Of a DNA stretch of 64,000 nt, positions 3,129 through 60,904 are shown in pieces. Both the position numbers and the translations under genes were made by a program. The stretch comes from an uncultured Armatimonadota bacterium (GTDB lineage: Bacteria; Armatimonadota; Fimbriimonadia; Fimbriimonadales; Fimbriimonadaceae), in the NCBI GenBank assembly GCA_903899015.1, contig CAIUHP010000079.1, positions 62,001 through 126,000 of the forward strand. Reading direction: 5' to 3'. Below the pieces are notes generated by a model. The model did not search any database and was not told the origin of the DNA. It saw only the letters and a list, made by a program, of their open reading frames with translations. The stretch's first letter is position 1. Each line of letters opens with the position of its first letter.

Positions 3129-4616
3129 ATGAACAAAAGGCTTAAGAAAGCAATACCGATGATTAAAGAGGTGCTCTTTAAGGCGCTGATCATTGGGGCA
3201 GGCTCCTATCTAATTGAGCACCTATGGCTTGATCGTCAGCCTTGGATTGTAGACATGCCGTTAACCGGTTACTCCTACGAGCAAAAGCTTCTTCAGGATA
3301 GCTTCTTAGACTCAAAACGTCAGTCTCCAGTGGTGGTCATGGATATTTCGCAGGCGCTACCGAGCCTTGCGAGCGAATTGCAGTCTGAAGGCAAATTAAC
3401 AAACAGCACGGACGATCAACGAGAAAACTTCCGAAATGCGGGCATGCTTATTGAGCAGATTTCCGATGCAAAGCCAACCGCAATTGCACTTGACTGGGAC
3501 ATATCAGACCCCGCGGATATGCCGCTTTCCTCAAAGTCCACACTTAATCAAAGCTCCATTCGATTTGATATTTGGAGGACGATTCGAGAATGCACATTGA
3601 AAGGAGTTCCTGTTTACTTTGGGTCAGATCGATTTCTAAAGGCTGGGGGGCGCATCTCTGACCTACAAGAGCCTTTCAAACATCTTGCTTGTACGCTGGA
3701 ACAGTCAAGCCCTAAGCCTGGGAGTTTTTCTGATGTAGCCCTCGTCCAGGGCGAGGGCGGAGTAGACACTTTATCGGTTGCAGTTGCTGAGTTTAAGGGT
3801 GTCTATGGTTTAAAACAGAACAAGCCGATTGAGGTCATTCGGACTCGTTTCCTTTCGATGGCACCAGACGATGAGGCCTCAAAACGCGAGAAATTTCTCA
3901 TTAATTACGAAGCTGTCCCTTCAATGATTCAGGAGTCGCTCAATATATTCGCCAGCAACGGGCCGGTCCCTATGATTGCAGACGCCAGTGTCTCGAAGCG
4001 GCTGACAGGTCGAGTCGTATTGTTAGGGGACTTGATTCGGCCTTCACCAGGAGACACCGCAAATTATCCTATTAGCGGTCCAAGCATGGGACGACTTCGG
4101 TCTTCTTACTCCGCGATTGTGAAAGGCAAGTCTAGCGAACGCGAGAAGGCTATCGATAACGGTATGTCTCTCATTTCAACGGGCGGAGTGCTTTATCAAG
4201 CATCGGCGATTCATACCCTTCTCGGGAACCAAGTGCTTGTCTTTACGGGCCCACTTGCGGAGTTTATCTTTGCCACTTCGGTAGGTGGATTTGCTTCGCT
4301 ATTGAAGATGCTCTTCCTCTCAGTCCTCTTGACGAAGAGAAAGTTTCACTCAGAAACGGCCTATGCAGAAATTCATCGGCTGTTCATCGAATTGTTTGTC
4401 GCAATCGTCATTATTCCGTTCTTAGTCCTGTGGTTCTGCGGGCAAACTCACATCCATCATCTTCTTATTCCCGGTGCGCCAGCCATTCTTTTGAGTTGTC
4501 TCATTGAGGGATTCGGCGAAGCCGCTTTTGCTTTGATAGTCGTACGGAGACACCTCGACCATCAAGAACACAAGACCAAATCGGAACCTGAACCAGTTCC
4601 CGCGACCATCCCTTAG
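3129..4616 (+). CDS. CHASE2-domain membrane sensor protein
   Basis: A 495-residue protein with an N-terminal hydrophobic segment (KALIIGAGSYLIEHLWL, about residues 17-33), then an extracytoplasmic CHASE2-like domain (about 50-340; hallmark strands VVVMDIS and AIALDWDIS) and a cluster of C-terminal membrane helices (about 375-475). No kinase, cyclase or other output domain is attached, so signal output is probably delivered by partners. It is followed after 3 bases by a caspase-TPR gene, which makes co-transcription very likely. A TATAAT box lies at 3088-3093. CHASE2 domains are extracellular sensory modules; the ligand is unknown. Confidence 0.8.
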   Translation: MNKRLKKAIPMIKEVLFKALIIGAGSYLIEHLWLDRQPWIVDMPLTGYSYEQKLLQDSFLDSKRQSPVVVMDISQALPSLASELQSEGKLTNSTDDQRENFRNAGMLIEQISDAKPTAIALDWDISDPADMPLSSKSTLNQSSIRFDIWRTIRECTLKGVPVYFGSDRFLKAGGRISDLQEPFKHLACTLEQSSPKPGSFSDVALVQGEGGVDTLSVAVAEFKGVYGLKQNKPIEVIRTRFLSMAPDDEASKREKFLINYEAVPSMIQESLNIFASNGPVPMIADASVSKRLTGRVVLLGDLIRPSPGDTANYPISGPSMGRLRSSYSAIVKGKSSEREKAIDNGMSLISTGGVLYQASAIHTLLGNQVLVFTGPLAEFIFATSVGGFASLLKMLFLSVLLTKRKFHSETAYAEIHRLFIELFVAIVIIPFLVLWFCGQTHIHHLLIPGAPAILLSCLIEGFGEAAFALIVVRRHLDHQEHKTKSEPEPVPATIP

Positions 4617-4619
4617 CCA

Positions 4620-6695
4620 ATGATGCCTCTTCCTTTTGTCGCCATCCTGGGTGTTGTTCTCACTACACGGGCTTCTTTAGCGCCTGAGATATTGCCGTTG
4701 GAATATCAGGGAGAGCAGATCTACCGAACGTCTCATGCGCTGATCGTTGCCGATAGCACTCCGCCACAAGGTGAAGTTGCATTTGGCAATTCCGCCGTTG
4801 CTATTGCCAAAACCTTAGTGGATACTTGCGGATTTCCGAAAGGGAATGTGGCGATCCTGACCGGCCAATCCGCAACAGTGTCAAATGTTCGCGCAGAAAT
4901 CGCTAAGCTCAAAGATCCAAAACGCGTTTCTCGCCAAGATCGAGTTTTGATCGTGATTGCGACGCATGGACTCGTCAAAGAAAAAATTGGATTCTTTCAG
5001 TTTGCGGGCGTGACCGATAATTTGTTGCCGATGAAGGAAGTGGCCGATGCGGTACTCACGAAGGAAGGTATCCCGGCTAAGCATGTCCTTATGCTCGCCG
5101 ATAGCTGTCATTCCGGCTCCATGACGAATTCGGAACCTACCGTTGGCGGTGACCAGGCTGCATCACTCTCTGACAAATTCCAACGTCCCTTTCGAGGAAT
5201 TTGGGCGGCTGCAAGCGCAAGTGGTCGGTCTTACAGTGACGACAGTTCTCAGTCCACTCAAATGATTAGTGCGATCATTTCGTGCCTGGGCAAGGACGAC
5301 ACCTATCCGTTGAATGTTGCTCAAGCTTGTGATGTCTTGTACCGCGCGAAAGATTTTATCCCGGTCACTCGCGCTTCCCTTTCTCAAGGAACCTATGTCT
5401 TTGCCCTCAAACCCGGAAAGCTTGTCGCACAAGCGGATGAGCGTGCTCGTCAGGACCAGTTAGAAAAGGATCATCAAGCAGCCGAGGCGCTTTCCTACAA
5501 GTCTAGCCAAAAGGTGCTTGAGTCGGAAAATGCTCTTGACGATGCAGATAAGTCGAAAGACTCCAAGGCATGGGCGAGCGCGCAAGATAAATATGCTGCT
5601 GCATTGATTGAGTTACCCACCGGCAATCGCACAAAGAACTTAAACAAAGCTCTTGATTCACTCAATCAAGCAATGACGGTTTTCACTGAGTCGGCCTACC
5701 CGGAGCAATGGGCATTTGCCATGTTCAAAGTTGGAGCGATTTACAACTACCTGCCAACCGGCGATCGGCAATCAAATCTAAAGCAAGCGATCCAATATTT
5801 GACCGGCGCCTTACGCGTCTTTAACGAAAAGGCGTTCCCTGAAGAATGGGCATCCGCCATGAATAGCCTTGCGGTTTCTCATCGGAACCTTCTATCTGGC
5901 GACGGCGAGGCAAACGTACGCAAGGCAATTGAATACTATCTCGCTGCTCTACGGGTCCGAACCGAGAAATCCAGCCCCGTAGACTACGCGACAACCATGA
6001 ACAATCTGGCCACATGTTATCGGCAGCTAAAAACGGGAGACACGGCCGCAAACAACAAGAAGTCGATTGAATGTTACGAGAATGCCATTCGAGTGGGCCG
6101 AGCGATTAGCGACACGATGGGCTGGACTACCAGCATGATGAATATGGGTGTCGCCCTTCGGTTAATGCGTGATGCAAATGCGGACGCGAACCTCAAGAAA
6201 TCCATCACCTGTTTGCAAACAGTCACTGACGTATTGGACGAGAAGACGCATCCCGAGTTGTGGTCCTTAGCGATGGGAAATCTTGGAGATGCTTATGGCG
6301 ACGTTTCCACCGGAGATACCGACGCGAGCCTCAAGAAGTCCATTGAATGTTATCAAAATGCGCTACGAGTCGATTCAGAAAAGGCTTATCCGGATTTATT
6401 TGGGACATGGATGCTCGGTAAAGGAATTTCATACCGCGAACTAAAGGGAGGAGATCGGGTACAGAACCTAAAGATGTCGGTCGAAGCAATCGAGAATTCG
6501 CTTCGGGTTCGGACAGAGGAAATCCCTCATGACAGAATTGAGGCACTTCTAGAACTTGCCGATACTCTAACGGAGCAAAAGAATAAAACTCGTGCTAGAT
6601 CTGTTTTGGAAGAGTGCCTCGCCCTCGCCAAGAAGATCAATGATCGCGATTCGATTGATGCTGCCACCGATGCTTTGAAAAAGATTTCGTCATGA
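4620..6695 (+). CDS. Caspase-family (C14) protease with TPR repeats
   Basis: A 691-residue protein: short hydrophobic N-terminus (possible signal or anchor), caspase-like p20 domain (about residues 35-270), then a helical linker and at least six tetratricopeptide repeats of about 50 residues (about 300-690). The catalytic dyad is present: His116 in IVIATHGL and Cys163 in LADSCHSGS. Bacterial caspase homologues of this type are predicted proteases; the TPR array probably binds a partner or substrate. It is encoded 3 bases after the CHASE2 sensor and before a FecR-like gene. Substrate and trigger are not visible. The repeats share the pattern of a GD-x-x-x-N-L-K-K-(A/S)-I-E turn and are probably recent internal duplications. 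Confidence 0.88.
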   Translation: MMPLPFVAILGVVLTTRASLAPEILPLEYQGEQIYRTSHALIVADSTPPQGEVAFGNSAVAIAKTLVDTCGFPKGNVAILTGQSATVSNVRAEIAKLKDPKRVSRQDRVLIVIATHGLVKEKIGFFQFAGVTDNLLPMKEVADAVLTKEGIPAKHVLMLADSCHSGSMTNSEPTVGGDQAASLSDKFQRPFRGIWAAASASGRSYSDDSSQSTQMISAIISCLGKDDTYPLNVAQACDVLYRAKDFIPVTRASLSQGTYVFALKPGKLVAQADERARQDQLEKDHQAAEALSYKSSQKVLESENALDDADKSKDSKAWASAQDKYAAALIELPTGNRTKNLNKALDSLNQAMTVFTESAYPEQWAFAMFKVGAIYNYLPTGDRQSNLKQAIQYLTGALRVFNEKAFPEEWASAMNSLAVSHRNLLSGDGEANVRKAIEYYLAALRVRTEKSSPVDYATTMNNLATCYRQLKTGDTAANNKKSIECYENAIRVGRAISDTMGWTTSMMNMGVALRLMRDANADANLKKSITCLQTVTDVLDEKTHPELWSLAMGNLGDAYGDVSTGDTDASLKKSIECYQNALRVDSEKAYPDLFGTWMLGKGISYRELKGGDRVQNLKMSVEAIENSLRVRTEEIPHDRIEALLELADTLTEQKNKTRARSVLEECLALAKKINDRDSIDAATDALKKISS

Positions 6696-6782
6696 TCCAG
6701 TCTTTGGCCCTGTCATTGAAACCTTGCTTCGGTATGTTTCGTGAACGGGTGTAGTGTTAGCTAGTAGGAACTTAACTTAGAA

Positions 6783-7739
6783 ATGGCATTCGCTCTGTTA
6801 GCTGCAATGGCAATCTGGGAGTCGAGCAGAGGCTATATCGCTTCGATGTCTGGCTCTGGTCAACTCACCCATGCGACCGGCACGACTGTGCCTTTGAAGG
6901 CAGAATCTTTAAAAAGTTGCGTGAGACTCTTTACCGGTGACCGAGTTCTACTCGCCAATTCCACATCAAAAGCGATGCTCATTCTAGATGGCAGAAGAGT
7001 ACGTATGGTGGGAGCGTCTGTCTTTACCGTTCCGTCCGACGCTGCGCAGGTCGGTGAACTTGCTTCTCGGACAGTCCTTGCCGGACGTGGCGCAGGATCG
7101 GGGGACAAGCCAGCACCCTTCGAAAAACTTGCGATCTTTTGCCGCCAAGATGGTGAGGAATCACCAGCCGGCAATCTTACCGTTTTTAATGATGGCTCTC
7201 TACCAATCGTTTGGGCTCACGACGAGCTAGCCAAGTCGGTTCAGATCACCATTCAGGTGGATGACGAGCCCAGCTTTACAACGGAATCGATTCCAGCTCA
7301 TGCGAACGGTATCAGCAGCTATCCCTTTGGCTCAACCAATCGCAAAGATTTGGGCGACTACCTGTTGAAAAACCTTTCCGACAAGTTCGCTCGGCAGGTT
7401 ACGCTAACGATCAAAGACAATAACGGTCGTACCAACAAGTCGTACTGGACCATTCAAAAGAAGGCTGAGTTTGAACGCGCAAGGAAATTATTCAAGGCCA
7501 ACGCCGTTGATGATTTTGATTTGTTCGATTCAACTGTTCAAAGCGCCGAAGGGGGCGAAGGGGGATCCAAGTCGCCTTCCTATCCAGGAATTAAAACGGC
7601 TCTTGTATATGGATATTTTGCAAAGCATGCGGACGCATTTATCGCGTTGGAGATGCTCCACTTCCTCTCTTTGACCCATCAATTTCCGGGAATCGAACTT
7701 CAACTTAAGAAGCAACTTGACGCTCGCGACAAAGGTTAA
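6783..7739 (+). CDS. FecR-like membrane-anchored protein of the CHASE2-caspase cassette
   Basis: A 318-residue protein with an N-terminal hydrophobic segment (MAFALLAAMAIW) followed by a FecR-like region (LFTGDRVLLANSTSKAMLIL, about 48-68), in which a short beta domain reads 'threshold, then value', as in FecR and DUF4384-type sensors. The start is fixed by an in-frame TAG 18 bases upstream and by the AGGAA at 6766-6770. It lies 87 bases after the caspase gene on the same strand and probably belongs to the same unit. The C-terminal half has no recognised domain. The FecR assignment is moderate; the link to the caspase is by position. Confidence 0.6.
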   Translation: MAFALLAAMAIWESSRGYIASMSGSGQLTHATGTTVPLKAESLKSCVRLFTGDRVLLANSTSKAMLILDGRRVRMVGASVFTVPSDAAQVGELASRTVLAGRGAGSGDKPAPFEKLAIFCRQDGEESPAGNLTVFNDGSLPIVWAHDELAKSVQITIQVDDEPSFTTESIPAHANGISSYPFGSTNRKDLGDYLLKNLSDKFARQVTLTIKDNNGRTNKSYWTIQKKAEFERARKLFKANAVDDFDLFDSTVQSAEGGEGGSKSPSYPGIKTALVYGYFAKHADAFIALEMLHFLSLTHQFPGIELQLKKQLDARDKG

Positions 7740-8311
7740 GGGCTCGCAACCAATCCAAAATGATAAGGGCACGAGGCCCGTAGGTCGACCGAGGTCACTT
7801 CTTTAAATCCCGCTTCGATCATCCAATCGCGGCATTGATTTGGACTCGGCCTTATCGCCAAGTTTGGCCCTCTTGGTGTGGGAATGTCACGTCGCCAATG
7901 AATAACGGAGAGCTTGCCATCTGGCTTTAGAATGCGATGAGATTCTTTCAAGAGATCAACCGGATTCTCCAAGTGCAGCAGGTTATAAACCATTACGTGA
8001 GCTTGCGATAAGTCCGGCCTCCCAGAGCCACTTGCCACAAAATCTCTTTGAACGGCACAGATATTCCCAATCGCCGATGACCTAGCCTTTGCTTGAACGC
8101 AATTCACCATTGAAAGATCGATATCCATGGCATGAATGAATCCCTCCACTCGGTGAGCGGTAGGGAGGGTAAACGTGCCGTAACCGCATCCAAATTCCGT
8201 TAGGTCCCCGATGAGCTGACCCACACCCATAAGTTGATCAAGTGCCAGTTCAACGTTGAAAAAGCTAGACCACATTTCTTCCGCGGGCATGCTGCTTTCA
8301 CGACCTTTCAT
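7736..8311 (-). CDS. Class I SAM-dependent methyltransferase
   Basis: A 191-residue Rossmann-fold methyltransferase. Motif I is LTEFGCGYG (about residues 37-45), followed by the acidic strand end HAMDID that binds the SAM ribose, a post-I region VMVYNLLHLENP and the motif HRILKPDGKLSVIHWR typical of UbiE/COQ5-like enzymes. The substrate is unknown. Two starts are possible, ATG 8311 or ATG 8290; neither has a clear ribosome-binding site. The 3' end overlaps the end of the convergent FecR-like gene by 4 bases. It is divergent from the glycosidase-like gene at 8394. Confidence 0.8.
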   Translation of the reverse strand: MKGRESSMPAEEMWSSFFNVELALDQLMGVGQLIGDLTEFGCGYGTFTLPTAHRVEGFIHAMDIDLSMVNCVQAKARSSAIGNICAVQRDFVASGSGRPDLSQAHVMVYNLLHLENPVDLLKESHRILKPDGKLSVIHWRRDIPTPRGPNLAIRPSPNQCRDWMIEAGFKEVTSVDLRASCPYHFGLVASP

Positions 8312-8372
8312 CTTTTTTCAACTTCGAAGTCTACTCTTGACACGATTTACTGCACGTTTTATTGACCAGATA

Positions 8373-8378
8373 TATAAT
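8373..8378 (+). promoter_or_regulatory. -10 box (TATAAT) before secreted glycosidase-like gene
   Basis: A perfect TATAAT lies 15 bases before the ATG at 8394. TTGACA at 8337-8342 is too far away (30-base spacer) to be its -35. If used, the transcript would have a leader of only a few bases, and no Shine-Dalgarno sequence is present. Confidence 0.4.
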
Positions 8379-8393
8379 GGCGGACCACCACCC

Positions 8394-10880
8394 ATGAAAC
8401 GAATTACCGAATGCTTGATCGCCGGAGCCCTTGCCAGTTTTACGTTGGGCTCGACCGATCGTCAGATGAATCAGGGCTTCAACTTTGCGAATAGCTTTGC
8501 GACGATCCAAATCGATCAGAAGGGTTCCGTATTCTCGATTCATTCTAGGGCGACGAACCACGAGTTTAGCGCTAAGACCCAACATTCACCGATTCTGGGT
8601 TTAGAGATCAATAAACAGATCATCGTACCGATCTCGGCAAAGTTGAATCGTCGCAGTCATCAACTCGTCCTCAAATATCCGAACGGATCGATTGCCACCA
8701 TTCAAGTCGCGGCTCACAAAGAGTATTTCCGGTTTCAATTGGTCTCGCTTACTCATCGGGCTCAGGTTGATAATGTGGTTTGGGGACCGATCAAAACGAC
8801 AATCTCTAAAATGATTGGCGACCTGATTGGGGTGGTTCGGCAAGATGACTTTGCGATTGGAATGGTAGGGCTGGATGACAATACCATCCCTGGCCCGCCA
8901 GTCGATGGAGACTGCTACGGCATGGGGTATTTCATCCACTCCCCCGATCCTAAAAAGATCCCTTTACCCGCCAAATACAAGGAAGGGCAGTGGTTCAACA
9001 TTGGTGGAGACGGCGTGAGCGACACTGCCTTTTACAGCCACCCCGAGGAGTTCTTTCAGCAGGTGATGGGGAATGGCGCAAAGCTCGAACCATCGTTCGG
9101 ATCAAGTGTCACCTACCATGCTCGTAATCGCCGTAAGTCTACAACGCACTTCTTCTCGCTCCTTCCAGGTTTCAAAGGCTCGCGCCCACGACATCAGATA
9201 AGTGATCCGGTGGATGTGGACTACATTGGTTCAGCAGTTGCGTTATTTGCCTGCCCGGATACTGAAGGTCTCAAAACAATTGAGAAGATTGAGCTGGCAG
9301 AAGGAGTCCCTCATCCAGTTATCGATGGCAAATGGATTCATGACCGAACTGGAGACAAGCCCGATGTGGCATGGTACGGTCCTCACGACAAGTTGATTGA
9401 ATACGCCGATCAGCTTGGGCTGCAAGCGGTTCAAGATGAGGGTCAAGGTGAGTATTACGCAAACCCGGCCGACCACTGGAAAGGCCAACGAGTCGGATTT
9501 GCAGACGGTCGAAAGATGACTTACCCCGAATTCACTCGAATTACAAATCAGCATGGCGTGAAGTACGGGTTACACACCTTGTGCCTTTTCCTCCAGGCAG
9601 GTCGATGCACGGACGTCACTCCGAAGGCTAACGTTCATCTTCAAACGGTACTGCGAACGAAGCTTGCGAAGTCGATTTCGGCGTCGGATACTCAGATTGA
9701 AGTGACCGATCCTTCGTTCCTTGCTGAAGACGGAACATGGCCCATGCGAGACGGTGCGAACACCTTGCGCATCGGCAATGAACTATTGACCTACACCGGT
9801 GTGAGCCAAACGGCTCCCTTTATGCTTCTAGGAATCAAGCGCGGACAAGATGGCACGACTGCAGTGCCTCACGAAGCTAAAAATGAGTTAGTCAAGCTTC
9901 AAATGAACTGCTACAACGGCTTTGTGCCTGACATGTCACTCATGCCCTCTTACGCTGACTACTATGCGAAAGTGATGGTCGAGAACGGGATGAAGTACAT
10001 CGATTTCGATGGCCTTGAAAGCTGCGTTTACCAAAACCATGGCTACTTCGGCGTTCGCAAGTTCCTACGAAGACTCTTTGAAACCTACGCCAAATTGACC
10101 GGCGGTCAAAGTCCGAGGGTCATGGGCTCCTGCGTTTTCCCTGGCGGGTGGGAATTCATGAGCGTTTGCAACATCGGTGGCGGAAACAACATGTTTGATC
10201 CCGTTCTTAATAAGTGGGGCATCGAAGGAAAAGATATTCGTAACGCCTTTGGAAACAGCTACTTCGCCGCTACCTTTGGCATTCAGGATTACCACAGCGA
10301 TTGGTCACTCTATGATGCAGAAAATCTAGAAGCCAAGTCGATCGGCTGGAATGCGATGTACATGCTCGGGCTGAGTGAACACACCGTTGAGCAAAGTGGC
10401 GAAAAGCGGGCCATCTTCAGGGCCTTCCGAGCTTGGGAGAATGCTCGCCACGCTCAGGTATTCAAGCCAGCAGTAAGGGCACAACTGAAGGATATGAACT
10501 CCAAATTTCATCTTGAGCAACTTGGGACATCGTTTTTCCTTTCCCCGGTTAAAGAGATTCGCAAAACCGCTACAAGCTTCTCGTTCGGCCCAGGGCCCTT
10601 ACATTTTTCACTTCAATTCATGAAGCCAGTTGATAGTTTCACCTTGCAGCTAGGTGGTAGCACGCTTCATTTCTCTCAGAAGGTTGACGCAGGACAATTC
10701 CTATTGGTAAATGGAGACCACGTATCAATGGCAGACTCGAATCGAAAGCCAACCGTAGCGTTACCCATCAGTTCTTCGGACCTATGGCTAAGCGGGAACT
10801 GCAACATGAGTGTTCAGTCTGCTTCACCATTGAGCTGCGAGTGGACGATTTGGACGGTCGGGAAACCCCAAAAGCTTTAG
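8394..10880 (+). CDS. Secreted TIM-barrel glycosidase-like protein
   Basis: An 828-residue protein from the ATG at 8394, where a signal peptide begins (MKRITECLIAGALASFTLG); the frame extends to 8256 but without a plausible start. The N-terminal third is beta-rich. The central region looks like a (beta/alpha)8 glycoside hydrolase: RVGFADGRKMTYPEFTRI, then a GVKYGLHTL strand, and KYIDFDGLES around residues 535-545, an acidic cluster suitable for catalysis. The C-terminus looks like a beta-sandwich. A short insert (about residues 425-500, with AKSISASDTQIEV) resembles a small beta domain seen in other armatimonad-type secreted proteins. The exact GH family is not recognised. Confidence 0.6.
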   Translation: MKRITECLIAGALASFTLGSTDRQMNQGFNFANSFATIQIDQKGSVFSIHSRATNHEFSAKTQHSPILGLEINKQIIVPISAKLNRRSHQLVLKYPNGSIATIQVAAHKEYFRFQLVSLTHRAQVDNVVWGPIKTTISKMIGDLIGVVRQDDFAIGMVGLDDNTIPGPPVDGDCYGMGYFIHSPDPKKIPLPAKYKEGQWFNIGGDGVSDTAFYSHPEEFFQQVMGNGAKLEPSFGSSVTYHARNRRKSTTHFFSLLPGFKGSRPRHQISDPVDVDYIGSAVALFACPDTEGLKTIEKIELAEGVPHPVIDGKWIHDRTGDKPDVAWYGPHDKLIEYADQLGLQAVQDEGQGEYYANPADHWKGQRVGFADGRKMTYPEFTRITNQHGVKYGLHTLCLFLQAGRCTDVTPKANVHLQTVLRTKLAKSISASDTQIEVTDPSFLAEDGTWPMRDGANTLRIGNELLTYTGVSQTAPFMLLGIKRGQDGTTAVPHEAKNELVKLQMNCYNGFVPDMSLMPSYADYYAKVMVENGMKYIDFDGLESCVYQNHGYFGVRKFLRRLFETYAKLTGGQSPRVMGSCVFPGGWEFMSVCNIGGGNNMFDPVLNKWGIEGKDIRNAFGNSYFAATFGIQDYHSDWSLYDAENLEAKSIGWNAMYMLGLSEHTVEQSGEKRAIFRAFRAWENARHAQVFKPAVRAQLKDMNSKFHLEQLGTSFFLSPVKEIRKTATSFSFGPGPLHFSLQFMKPVDSFTLQLGGSTLHFSQKVDAGQFLLVNGDHVSMADSNRKPTVALPISSSDLWLSGNCNMSVQSASPLSCEWTIWTVGKPQKL

Positions 10881-12740: not shown

Positions 12741-13187
12741 CTATGCCATCCAGTGAACTTCGCCGTCACCAAGCAGGCCTTGGATGTAATTCAACTGACC
12801 GTCGTGGTACCAAATGTGGCTGACCGCGATATGGGCCAAAACCATAACGGGAGTCGCCATTTGCCAAGGCGCCATGGCTACTCGGTTCAGCTGATCGTCC
12901 GAAGCGCCTCGAATTGCGGCCGCAAGGGCAGCAGATGCTTCAGTGAGTGCCGTGATGGCGGTTTCCTTGTCCGCACACGCGGCCGATTCAGCCGCCATGT
13001 TGTTGTAAGCCGATGATTCGATCCCGTTGATCGTTTCAGTCGTCCACTTCAAGTTCGTGATCGTATCGCCAAGAAGCTCGTTAGCTGGTCGCGCGCAGCC
13101 GCCGTGAGCAGCCGTCCACTTATCGTCGGGAATCGCCTTAACGTCTGCGATCGTCATGTGGGTTACCGCGTCAAGCCACCCTGCCAA
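12741..13187 (-). CDS. DinB-like metal-dependent family protein, 5' end broken by in-frame TGA
   Basis: A four-helix-bundle protein of the DinB/DUF1569-like superfamily (148 residues in the open part), ending YHDGQLNYIQGLLGDGEVHW; His residues in WTTETI/HIAVSHIWYHDGQ would be metal ligands. The natural start seems to be the ATG at 13226, which has an SD-like GAGAGGA upstream and the same frame (MSEQTTGVDA), but a TGA at 13196-13194 interrupts it at codon 11. The next possible start is TTG 13187, two codons after the stop. So the gene is nonsense-mutated, re-initiated or mis-sequenced. A paralogue with the same C-terminus lies at 29559-30026. Confidence 0.65.
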   Translation of the reverse strand: MAGWLDAVTHMTIADVKAIPDDKWTAAHGGCARPANELLGDTITNLKWTTETINGIESSAYNNMAAESAACADKETAITALTEASAALAAAIRGASDDQLNRVAMAPWQMATPVMVLAHIAVSHIWYHDGQLNYIQGLLGDGEVHWMA

Positions 13188-29558: not shown

Positions 29559-30026
29559 ATGGGACCTATGGAAGCAGCTGCCGCCGGAATGGAAAGCGCA
29601 GCAAAGAATTATCTCGATGATTTGGAAGCAATGTCGGAAGCTCAGATTCTTGAGTCCGCTGGCGGAACCGCGCGTTCAGCGGTTGATTTCACCTTTGAAA
29701 CCGCAATTATCAACAAGCGAATTGCCGCTCGATTGAACGGAGTCGAACCTCCAGCAATGCCTGAAGGTGAAGGGTGGACGGTTGCACCGGAAGAGTTGCG
29801 AAGTAAATCGGCGATTGCTGAATACATGAAGTCCGCTTGCGATGAACTCATCGCAGTCGCTAAGACTAAGAGCGAAGAAGCTGGTGCGCAATTGATGCCT
29901 CTGTTTGGCGGCGAGAAGCCTACATTCTATGCGGTCAATTTCGCCGCGATGCACACGATGTATCATTGCGCTCAGCTGAATTTCATTCAGTCGCTCGCGG
30001 GCGACATGGAAGTTCACTGGGGTTAG
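29559..30026 (+). CDS. DinB-like family protein
   Basis: A 155-residue protein of the same family as the gene at 12741, sharing the C-terminal pattern YHCAQLNFIQSLAGDMEVHW and a helical-bundle layout. It has potential metal-binding histidines in MHTMYH. The ATG at 29559 follows the transporter operon by 18 bases without a ribosome-binding site, so it may be leaderless or read through. Function unknown; DinB-superfamily members include thiol-dependent transferases. Confidence 0.65.
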   Translation: MGPMEAAAAGMESAAKNYLDDLEAMSEAQILESAGGTARSAVDFTFETAIINKRIAARLNGVEPPAMPEGEGWTVAPEELRSKSAIAEYMKSACDELIAVAKTKSEEAGAQLMPLFGGEKPTFYAVNFAAMHTMYHCAQLNFIQSLAGDMEVHWG

Positions 30027-58491: not shown

Positions 58492-59253
58492 TTAGCCAGC
58501 GAGAACTTTTAGCGTAGCAGCCCGGAGCTGGTCTTCCGGAATTTCCCGAGTACCGTGCTGATCGAGAACTCTCGTAACTGGCAACGTCTTGTTAAACCCT
58601 CCAGTCGCCGAATCGAGGTCTGCCGCAATGTCAAGCATCTGAAGTCCGTCCGCGAGGACTTCGTCAAGAGGTCGCGTCTCGAACCTACCCTTGGTGCGAG
58701 CGATGTATTCAAACACCCCTCGGATCCTTTCCGAACCCGATCCTGCGCACGCGTAAGATCCATTTTGGAAGCGCGCTCCCGCACCGTCAAAGAAGTAGAC
58801 GCCAAACTCGCCTCGCTTTTTATCATAGGCGGCTACGATCGGCAAGAAAAGCCCAATGCCTTGCATCGCCATCGGAGCATTCCCAGCCAAAGCCCGCGAG
58901 ATTTCCATAAGCTTGCCCTCTAGGGACATCTCTTGAAGCACCGTCCGTCGATAATATTTGAACGAATGCTTGAGGAATCGGCAAACGTCGACCGACTTGG
59001 CGAACGCTCCCGAAATCGCAACAACTGTGGAGTCGTCGAGGGCGATGATCTTTTCCGCCTGATCGTACATGATCAGATTCCCAGCAGTTGCTCGGCGATC
59101 TGCGAGAGTTAGAACGCCTTGATCGTATCGCAGTTGCAGAACCGTTGTTCCGTGGGTCTCGAAGTGCGGATCGGTCATCCCATTGCCGTAAGACGCAAGA
59201 ACTTTTCCAAACCCGGTGAGTTCGGCAAAATCGCGAGGTTCTTGGGCGATCAT
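58492..59253 (-). CDS. prcB: 20S proteasome beta subunit
   Basis: A 253-residue proteolytic subunit of the bacterial 20S proteasome. The auto-processing site is HG/TTVLQL; the mature N-terminus would be Thr36, the nucleophile. Asp17 and Lys33 (mature numbering; residues 52 and 68 of the precursor) match the catalytic triad, and the conserved GSGSERIRGVFEYIA and DLDSATGG (Asp and Ser) are present. A propeptide of 35 residues precedes. The start overlaps the ubact stop by 4 bases (ATGA). No alpha subunit (prcA) is encoded in the window, so it must lie elsewhere or be replaced. Confidence 0.95.
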   Translation of the reverse strand: MIAQEPRDFAELTGFGKVLASYGNGMTDPHFETHGTTVLQLRYDQGVLTLADRRATAGNLIMYDQAEKIIALDDSTVVAISGAFAKSVDVCRFLKHSFKYYRRTVLQEMSLEGKLMEISRALAGNAPMAMQGIGLFLPIVAAYDKKRGEFGVYFFDGAGARFQNGSYACAGSGSERIRGVFEYIARTKGRFETRPLDEVLADGLQMLDIAADLDSATGGFNKTLPVTRVLDQHGTREIPEDQLRAATLKVLAG

Positions 59254-59432
59254 TGGCCCGATCGCTGGCGGTATTTCTTCGCCTGGTCCGGGTCAACCTT
59301 CTTCATTCTGCGAAGAAGCTCGTTGCCGCCTTCTGGTTTGCGAATGGTGGGTGTACTTGGCCCACTATCGTCGCCTTGCTTCGTACCTGGTTCTTTGGTT
59401 AATGGTCTTGTGAGCCTATCGCCGTCCGTCAT
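59250..59432 (-). CDS. ubact: UBact/Pup-like ubiquitin-like modifier
   Basis: A 60-residue disordered, charged protein with no cysteine or tryptophan. Its C-terminal third, RRMKKVDPDQAKKYRQRSGQ, fits the UBact modifier of Gram-negative bacteria and ends in Gln, as in Pup proteins that need Dop to convert Gln to Glu before ligation. The N-terminal half is rich in Gly, Pro and Thr. It overlaps dop by 4 bases and prcB by 4 bases, so translation is coupled. Its expected role is to be attached to lysines of target proteins and lead them to the proteasome. Confidence 0.93.
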   Translation of the reverse strand: MTDGDRLTRPLTKEPGTKQGDDSGPSTPTIRKPEGGNELLRRMKKVDPDQAKKYRQRSGQ

Positions 59433-60904
59433 TGAATACCTCTCAGCATGCTAATAAACGTTTCTACGTCTTCCGCCTCTGCTAATTGCGGAGGATATTC
59501 GAAATTTGGCATTAAATCCACTTCCACCGGTTTACCGCCAATATCAAAAGTCAGCGTTCGCCAACACACACCCTTCAGTCGATCATTGAAGCGAGATACA
59601 GCTAGTCCACGCGCATAGGCTCTTGTGGGCTCTTCAACTCCTTCTAAGGCAGCAAGAAGATCACTTTGCACCGGATTCGGTGACACTTCTCCCATTTGCT
59701 CAAGCGCGGCATGGAGTCCTTCTTCGGGGTCCGCGTTGTGGTACTCCAGATCAAATGCTCTTAGTTGTGGATCGCGCCAATCAGTCGACTCAGAAGCGAT
59801 GTAATCGGTATACATCGCATATTTCGCTGCCCAATCCACTTCCCGCTTGAATTGGCTGAAGTTTGTTCGAAGATCTTGGAGTAGTTGCCGAGAGGAGTCG
59901 ATGACCCATTTCATCTCATCATCAAGGTCGAGCAATCGCTCTGCGGCAGCAAAATAGGATTCCAAGATCTCATAGGCATTGGTCCAACTACGTCCCTTGA
60001 GTTCCACCTTAAAATCGAACGAAAGATCGTGGCTGATTGCTTGAAAAGCTCGAACCGGGTCCTTGAATTCCCAGATCGGGGCAAACTCCGCTTCGGTAAG
60101 GGCAATCGCTAGCTTCATCAGACCAACCTTTCTTGCCGTTGCGGAAGAAATCATGTTAGCGTCTCCACAGATGACGTGAAGCCGCATCCAATCTTTCGGT
60201 TCGGAGTGCGCCTCGTCCCGAGTGTTGAATATCGGGCGCCGATAGAGCGTTTCTGCGTTGGCAGGTTCGACAAGGTAATCCGCACGCTGGCTGAGTTGGT
60301 AACTCGGTTGCTTCGAAGACCCGTCCCCCACACAGCCTGCTCCAACGAGCACCTGACGGGTAACCATCATGGGGAGCAACCCCTTAAATAAGCGCTCGAA
60401 GCCAACCGAGCGTGGAACCAAATATCCTTCGTGCGTTCCGTACGAGGCACCGTGATAATCGGTGTTGTTCTTGTAGATGTGAACGGGGACACCCAGTTCT
60501 TTCTCAAAGGCTTTTGCCGCACGCATCACCACAATCTGGCCTGCGCAATCGTGCTTGGCTAGTTCAAAAATCGAGAGACATTCAGGCGTTGCGTATTCGG
60601 GATGGCCATGGTCGTTATAGAAACGTGCTCCGTTGGGCAGAACACGGTCTGACCGAATCTCATGAGCCTCACCGTAAGTCCGTCCCGCATCGAACTGAGC
60701 ATCAACCGGATCAAAGGCTAGCCTTTCGAGGCGGAACCCGCGCAGGTCAGCTCGAGGTGACTCATATTGGTAGTCCCAACCAAAATGGCACTCGCCCGGG
60801 TATCCCCGGACGAGTGCCATTGAATGATCGATCTGACTATCCGCGCCGTAACCTTCGACTAAGAGTCCATACTCCGTCTCGATTCCAGCGAGGATCTTCC
60901 GCAC
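59429..60904 (-). CDS. dop: Pup/UBact deamidase and depupylase Dop
   Basis: A 491-residue glutamine-synthetase-like enzyme that deamidates the modifier's C-terminal Gln and removes the modifier from substrates. Dop-type features: GIETEYGLL start, FGWDYQYESPRADLRGF (the WDYxxESPxxDxRGF signature of Dop, absent from PafA), NDHGHPEYATPEC, KNNTDYHGASYGTHEGYL, QLSQRADYL and NTRDEAHSEPKDWMRLHVICGDANM. The start is GTG 60904, overlapping the lipoprotein stop (TAGTG). The ligase PafA is not encoded here. Confidence 0.94.
   Translation of the reverse strand: MRKILAGIETEYGLLVEGYGADSQIDHSMALVRGYPGECHFGWDYQYESPRADLRGFRLERLAFDPVDAQFDAGRTYGEAHEIRSDRVLPNGARFYNDHGHPEYATPECLSIFELAKHDCAGQIVVMRAAKAFEKELGVPVHIYKNNTDYHGASYGTHEGYLVPRSVGFERLFKGLLPMMVTRQVLVGAGCVGDGSSKQPSYQLSQRADYLVEPANAETLYRRPIFNTRDEAHSEPKDWMRLHVICGDANMISSATARKVGLMKLAIALTEAEFAPIWEFKDPVRAFQAISHDLSFDFKVELKGRSWTNAYEILESYFAAAERLLDLDDEMKWVIDSSRQLLQDLRTNFSQFKREVDWAAKYAMYTDYIASESTDWRDPQLRAFDLEYHNADPEEGLHAALEQMGEVSPNPVQSDLLAALEGVEEPTRAYARGLAVSRFNDRLKGVCWRTLTFDIGGKPVEVDLMPNFEYPPQLAEAEDVETFISMLRGIQ

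Follow-up and report, generated by a model that had tools for sequence, protein, structure and literature searches.

Three genes lie side by side in the window, by which is meant the whole stretch of 64,000 nucleotides that was analysed (Table 1). They encode a CHASE2-type membrane protein, a caspase (C14) with TPR-type repeats and a FecR-like protein, with gaps of 3 bases between the CHASE2 and caspase genes and 87 bases between the caspase and FecR-like genes; the original prediction of three co-directional genes with this spacing was exact in coordinates, strand and gaps. A terminator- or promoter-like site was looked for in the 87-base gap, and none was seen. The FecR-like gene and the gene after it (7736-8311, minus strand) converge, and their ends overlap by 4 bases. 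The left flank contains an order-conserved block (324-2922) of genes for ThiF-rhodanese, a small protein without a Pfam match and a BNR-repeat protein, found in the same order in five relatives. In two genomes that carry the cassette, G004 and G008, it is located elsewhere in the genome relative to this flank, and the right-flank methyltransferase was found in no further genome of the genus. The cassette has a patchy distribution and a changing location. Its composition shows no sign of a foreign island, with a GC content (47-51%) close to that of the surroundings (about 49-53%). Elsewhere in the window, genes of the proteasome-subunit and Pup-ligase families adjoin each other (58492-60904, minus strand; Pfam E 5e-21 and 3e-137), and two DinB-superfamily-like proteins are encoded (12741-13187 and 29559-30026), both slightly below the Pfam cut-off.

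Table 1. Genes of the cassette, and loci in related genomes where a FecR-like and a TPR-CHAT protein precede a CHASE2-cyclase
Feature	Position	Strand	Length	Basis
CHASE2-type membrane protein gene	3129-4616	+	495 aa	ORF, exact coordinates
Caspase (C14) and TPR-type repeats gene	4620-6695	+	691 aa	ORF, exact coordinates
FecR-like protein gene	6783-7739	+	318 aa	ORF, exact coordinates
FecR-like beside or fused to TPR-CHAT, directly ahead of CHASE2-cyclase	L084 2298-6347			
FecR-like beside or fused to TPR-CHAT, directly ahead of CHASE2-cyclase	L106 7593-11741			
FecR-like beside or fused to TPR-CHAT, directly ahead of CHASE2-cyclase	L080			
FecR-like beside or fused to TPR-CHAT, directly ahead of CHASE2-cyclase	L082			

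The CHASE2 protein consists of an N-terminal transmembrane segment, an extracytoplasmic domain of ~340 residues, three C-terminal transmembrane segments (379-397, 418-436 and 441-459 in a hydropathy scan) and a charged tail of ~25 residues. The N-terminal segment is borderline in the same scan of the window protein and clear in its G004 orthologue. CHASE2 proteins have been described with a single helix ahead of the extracytoplasmic domain and three behind it (PMC3501461; PMC5192318), and the window protein has this layout. Against PF05226 it scores 15.4 bits, below the curated cut-off of 26.3, and the syntenic relative in G008 (29.7 bits) and the output-less CHASE2 proteins of G005 (61.5) and G126 (46.4) score over it. 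An alignment of 291 columns (hhalign 96%, E 4e-9) joins a window-type profile made from three sequences to an accepted CHASE2 protein, and the motifs GRVVLLGD and GVLYQASAIHTLLG are kept in it. Most CHASE2 proteins have a cytoplasmic output domain, although it is no requirement for the domain itself, and a cyclase is present in 32 of the family's CHASE2 loci that were examined. The window protein was predicted to have no output domain of its own, and none is found past the last transmembrane helix, because only ~25 residues follow it. An AlphaFold model from a two-row alignment (mean pLDDT 37) gave a fold too poor for use, and no match was returned by a PDB sequence search with the CHASE2 profile or by a viral-contig scan with the protein.

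The caspase-TPR protein begins with a hydrophobic, signal-peptide-like segment (residues 1-22), followed by the caspase domain at about residues 35-270 and then by TPR-type repeats of 46 residues. The caspase domain matches PF00656 (C14) with 29.2 bits, over the cut-off of 21.4, and TPR_12 is also matched; a PDB sequence search with the caspase profile returned mostly TPR proteins plus one metacaspase, and the EACC1-type caspase model gave 29.6 bits against a cut-off of 140. H116 is found in IATHG and C163 in DSCHSG. Both are invariant, together with D161, in three orthologues, so that the His-Cys dyad, described from the outset as intact, is indeed kept. The basic specificity of metacaspases is associated with a pocket containing two acidic residues (PMC6426788). 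D161, located two residues ahead of the catalytic Cys, would be one of these, according to our reading of the TbMC2 numbering in the same paper. At the second position, Ser is found in the window caspase where Asp is aligned in other caspases of the family. Basic specificity is not to be assumed for the window caspase, because its second acidic pocket residue appears to be replaced, and both its activity and its specificity are considered uncertain.

The FecR-like protein is composed, in order, of a signal-peptide-like N-terminus, a beta-rich FecR-like part, an Ig-like part and a helical C-terminus, with secondary structure read from a poor AlphaFold model (two-row alignment, mean pLDDT 40). 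Searches of Pfam, including PF04773, gave no match up to E 1, NCBIfam gave no match of note, and a PDB sequence search with the profile of this protein found none. In hhalign, the profile matches collinearly those FecR-like proteins that CHAT operons encode (E 2.4e-4, probability 44%), and further single-protein comparisons gave E 0.15-0.27. The formal family name FecR was rejected, there being no profile match and no hhalign signal with the true FecR protein of a related genome. We use the name FecR-like, not FecR, for the third protein; the support for it is indirect, which makes it the weakest label among the three. Its relatives are found in G004, G005 and G008. One of them (39% identity) is encoded alone in G005, at L027 (G005:C125; 8851-9804, minus strand), with neither CHASE2 nor caspase nearby.

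Two of the three proteins have N-termini that resemble those of exported proteins. Among the 47 proteins of the window, the N-terminus of the caspase ranks third and that of the FecR-like protein sixth in hydrophobicity, both among clear signal peptides. Between the caspase and its G004 orthologue, residues 1-30 are 50% identical and the catalytic domain 87%, and an N-terminus that appears to diverge faster than the catalytic domain is the usual signal-peptide pattern. No transmembrane helix follows the hydrophobic N-terminal segment of the caspase. Positive charge is absent from the N-termini of both proteins, as it is from several other signal-like N-termini in the family. Altogether, export of the caspase and of the FecR-like protein seems likely.

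The distribution of the cassette was followed in 61 genomes, the window's own (G000) being one and its relatives the other 60. Three of them, G000, G004 and G008, have the complete set side by side, and none of the rest has the CHASE2 gene. Because the three genes are together in the same three of 61 genomes, the pattern is far beyond chance. Identity to the window cassette is 66-80% in G004 and 28-31% in G008, where the gene order is CHASE2-FecR-caspase. By cassette sequence, the closest named relative is the G004 record CAIYLG010000004.1, an uncultured Armatimonadetes MAG and the only record matched in the contig search. G005 has a divergent cassette on a separate contig from the lone FecR-like gene. 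It encodes a CHASE2 protein of 477 aa, a protein that bears a signal peptide and matches DUF4384 below the threshold, and a WD40-caspase. In G126, L105 (G126:C264) encodes a protein of 848 residues. It has a clear signal peptide and a caspase domain (Pfam E 2e-11), and we read it as carrying FecR-like, Ig-like and helical parts ahead of the caspase. The gene of this fusion (6988-9534) overlaps that of an output-less CHASE2 protein of 466 residues (5600-7000), both on the minus strand. Co-occurrence of the three genes elsewhere, named as a check in the original prediction, is found as adjacency in G004 and G008, as a divergent cassette in G005 and with a fusion of FecR-like and caspase parts in G126. 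Because related bacteria keep, rearrange or fuse these parts, their products very likely work together.

A caspase neighbour is found for all five complete output-less CHASE2 proteins in the family versus one of 32 CHASE2-cyclases (Fisher p 1e-5, and 0.005 without the three query-derived loci, both a guide only, since related genomes are not independent). The truncated or doubtful CHASE2 hits L093, L109 and L110 are left out of this count. It had been suggested that the caspase may be the effector of the CHASE2 protein, and this contrast strengthens the suggestion: because output-less CHASE2 proteins in the family always adjoin a caspase and cyclase-bearing ones almost never do, the caspase is most likely the effector. 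At least one output-less CHASE2 protein from outside the family, that of G221, lacks a caspase neighbour. A plasmid search matched a single record, that of Caballeronia sp. M1242 (NZ_CP071130.1; L098, 3346-12882), in which an output-less CHASE2 gene is directly followed by that of a small FecR-like protein, and a CHAT protein is encoded ~4 kb from this pair, across an IS66-like transposase gene. The unannotated stretch of the same plasmid also encodes a phospholipase-D-like protein.

In the family, a class III cyclase is the last part of most CHASE2 proteins, and several of these adjoin FecR-like proteins. Four loci, one in G021, two in G033 and one in G163, have genes for a FecR-like protein and for a TPR-CHAT protein ahead of the CHASE2-cyclase gene, and the two proteins are fused in one of the G033 loci and in that of G163. 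A fifth locus, in G160, has CHAT, CHASE2-cyclase and FecR-like genes in sequence. These loci share with the window a FecR-like protein and a caspase-clan TPR protein beside a CHASE2 sensor, but differ in having a CHAT fold in place of the C14 caspase and a CHASE2 protein that keeps its cyclase. A WD40-caspase is also encoded near a CHASE2-cyclase in G159. At L091 (G018:C4; 2147-6567, minus strand), two CHASE2-cyclase genes lie close together with a gene for a small signal-bearing protein between them. Because a FecR-like part and a protease are joined in one signal-peptide chain in the G126 and FecR-CHAT fusions, these fusions are the strongest sign of a compartment and a task that the two have in common.

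Parts of this arrangement have been published in other forms. In Trichodesmium erythraeum, a metacaspase is fused to CHASE2 and the caspase is predicted to be cytoplasmic (PMC2853523; PMC3501461). No FecR-like partner is reported for that fusion, whereas in the window the caspase is encoded apart from CHASE2, as a TPR protein whose start is signal-peptide-like, and its gene adjoins a FecR-like one. EACC2-caspase proteins with a C-terminal CHASE2 domain have been described in predicted conflict systems linked to TRADD-N (PMC8195603). They share with the window the linkage of a caspase domain to a CHASE2 receptor domain, but in the window cassette the proteins are separate and no EACC2 or TRADD-N part was seen. 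The BiofilmReg operon of Burkholderia encodes a LysM-FecR protein and a CHASE2 histidine kinase (PMC5192318), that is, a signal-bearing FecR-domain protein next to a CHASE2 sensor whose membrane topology is that of the window protein. However, CHASE2 in that operon has a PAS and histidine-kinase output with a response regulator, whereas the window has a caspase and no output domain. Orthocaspases, some of them with TPRs (PMC6426788), share with the window protein a C14 domain that has the His-Cys dyad and, two residues ahead of the catalytic Cys, an Asp; the window caspase differs by its signal-peptide-like start, its linkage to CHASE2 and the apparent replacement of the second acidic pocket residue. 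In a literature search with subscription papers mostly outside its scope, CHASE2, caspase and FecR were not found together, nor was CHASE2 found with a CHAT domain. CHASE2-caspase fusions and CHASE2-FecR operons are thus already published, and the difference here seems to be a separate, apparently exported caspase combined with an output-less sensor.

Because the N-termini of the caspase and the FecR-like protein are signal-peptide-like, the cell envelope is probably where the protease acts. The simplest reading, and the one that we prefer at about even odds, is that the three genes encode one envelope-located module for sensing and proteolysis, whose export, physical assembly, ligand control, activation, protease activity and substrates we infer as follows. 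The CHASE2 protein would be located in the inner membrane, and the domain with which it binds its ligand would face away from the cytoplasm. Both the caspase-TPR and the FecR-like protein would be exported and would meet it there, probably in the periplasm. Binding of a ligand, or its loss, would alter the CHASE2 domain, which would switch the caspase either directly or via the FecR-like protein as adaptor and the TPR repeats as scaffold, and the switched caspase would then cleave envelope proteins. The caspase would thereby replace the output, as the window CHASE2 protein, unlike most of its relatives, is without a cyclase. Several observations speak against the module: the missing positive charge of the two N-termini, the lone FecR-like gene of G005, the G221 CHASE2 protein with no caspase beside it and the apparently replaced pocket residue. 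A more far-reaching form of this idea, to which we give only tentative credence, is that of a complete receptor-to-caspase pathway outside the cytoplasm, in which a cyclase-less CHASE2 protein would directly control an exported caspase via a FecR-like adaptor, CHAT being the alternative protease in the sister systems.

The caspase could also be cytoplasmic and controlled by the receptor from within, with CHASE2 sensing outside the cell and its helices and short tail recruiting or activating the caspase, possibly leading to cell death. The metacaspase-CHASE2 fusion of Trichodesmium, which has four transmembrane helices and a caspase predicted to be cytoplasmic (PMC3501461), is a precedent for this, as are the caspase-CHASE2 fusions of the TRADD-N/EACC2 systems (PMC8195603), and the absence of positive charge from the N-terminus of the window caspase would fit. 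However, this caspase is a separate protein with a hydrophobic and fast-changing N-terminus, its FecR-like partner is signal-bearing too, the G126 homologue has a clear signal peptide with a FecR-like part fused to the caspase, and the CHASE2 tail is just ~25 residues long, which together make a cytoplasmic caspase rather unlikely. Somewhat less probable still is that the caspase matures or sheds the CHASE2 or FecR-like protein, and so would be a regulator of the sensor and not its output, the downstream signal lying elsewhere. The same co-occurrence data would agree with such a role, and the CHASE2-cyclases with FecR-like and CHAT partners are cases in which a CHASE2 protein that has another output is accompanied by a protease-fold protein. 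In the cassette, however, CHASE2 has no other output domain, and if the protease were a regulator only, the system would be left without a known output.

Regulated cell death and a phage response, both of which had been suggested as possible roles of the cassette, are not supported by the data. The patchy distribution and the changing position relative to the ThiF-to-BNR flank in G004 and G008 would suit an anti-phage or programmed-death system, caspase and CHAT proteins are known in defence systems, and the G005 caspase matches a generic PADLOC caspase model. On the other hand, neither the CHASE2 nor the FecR-like protein matched a described anti-phage system in PADLOC, and the one match of the window caspase was to a generic TPR model (22.7 bits); the phage-defence label was rejected as there was no specific match. 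The cassette has no nucleic-acid sensor, NTPase or death-domain partner, and phage sensing from the envelope would be unusual in such a protein class. The cytoplasmic picture implied by cell death is likewise a poor fit to two proteins with signal-peptide-like N-termini, and we regard a defence or death function as quite improbable. That the three genes are mere neighbours without a common function, as the lone FecR-like gene of G005 might suggest, is hardly credible. It is already largely refuted by the fusion and by the way in which the set recurs independently, in another order and with other accessory domains, and the contrast between output-less CHASE2 proteins and CHASE2-cyclases also speaks against it.

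Most discussion of bacterial caspase-like proteins casts them as death or defence proteases of the cytoplasm. The combination of output-less sensor, apparently exported caspase and FecR-like protein, recurring as it does, would point instead to caspase signalling in the envelope, and would offer orphan CHASE2 and FecR-like proteins a partner that can be tested. The set also suggests that CHAT and caspase proteins may be interchangeable parts of one sensor system. If the pathway outside the cytoplasm is real, bacterial envelopes would hold a caspase-based signalling device with exchangeable scaffolds, among them TPR, WD40 and fusion to a FecR-like part.
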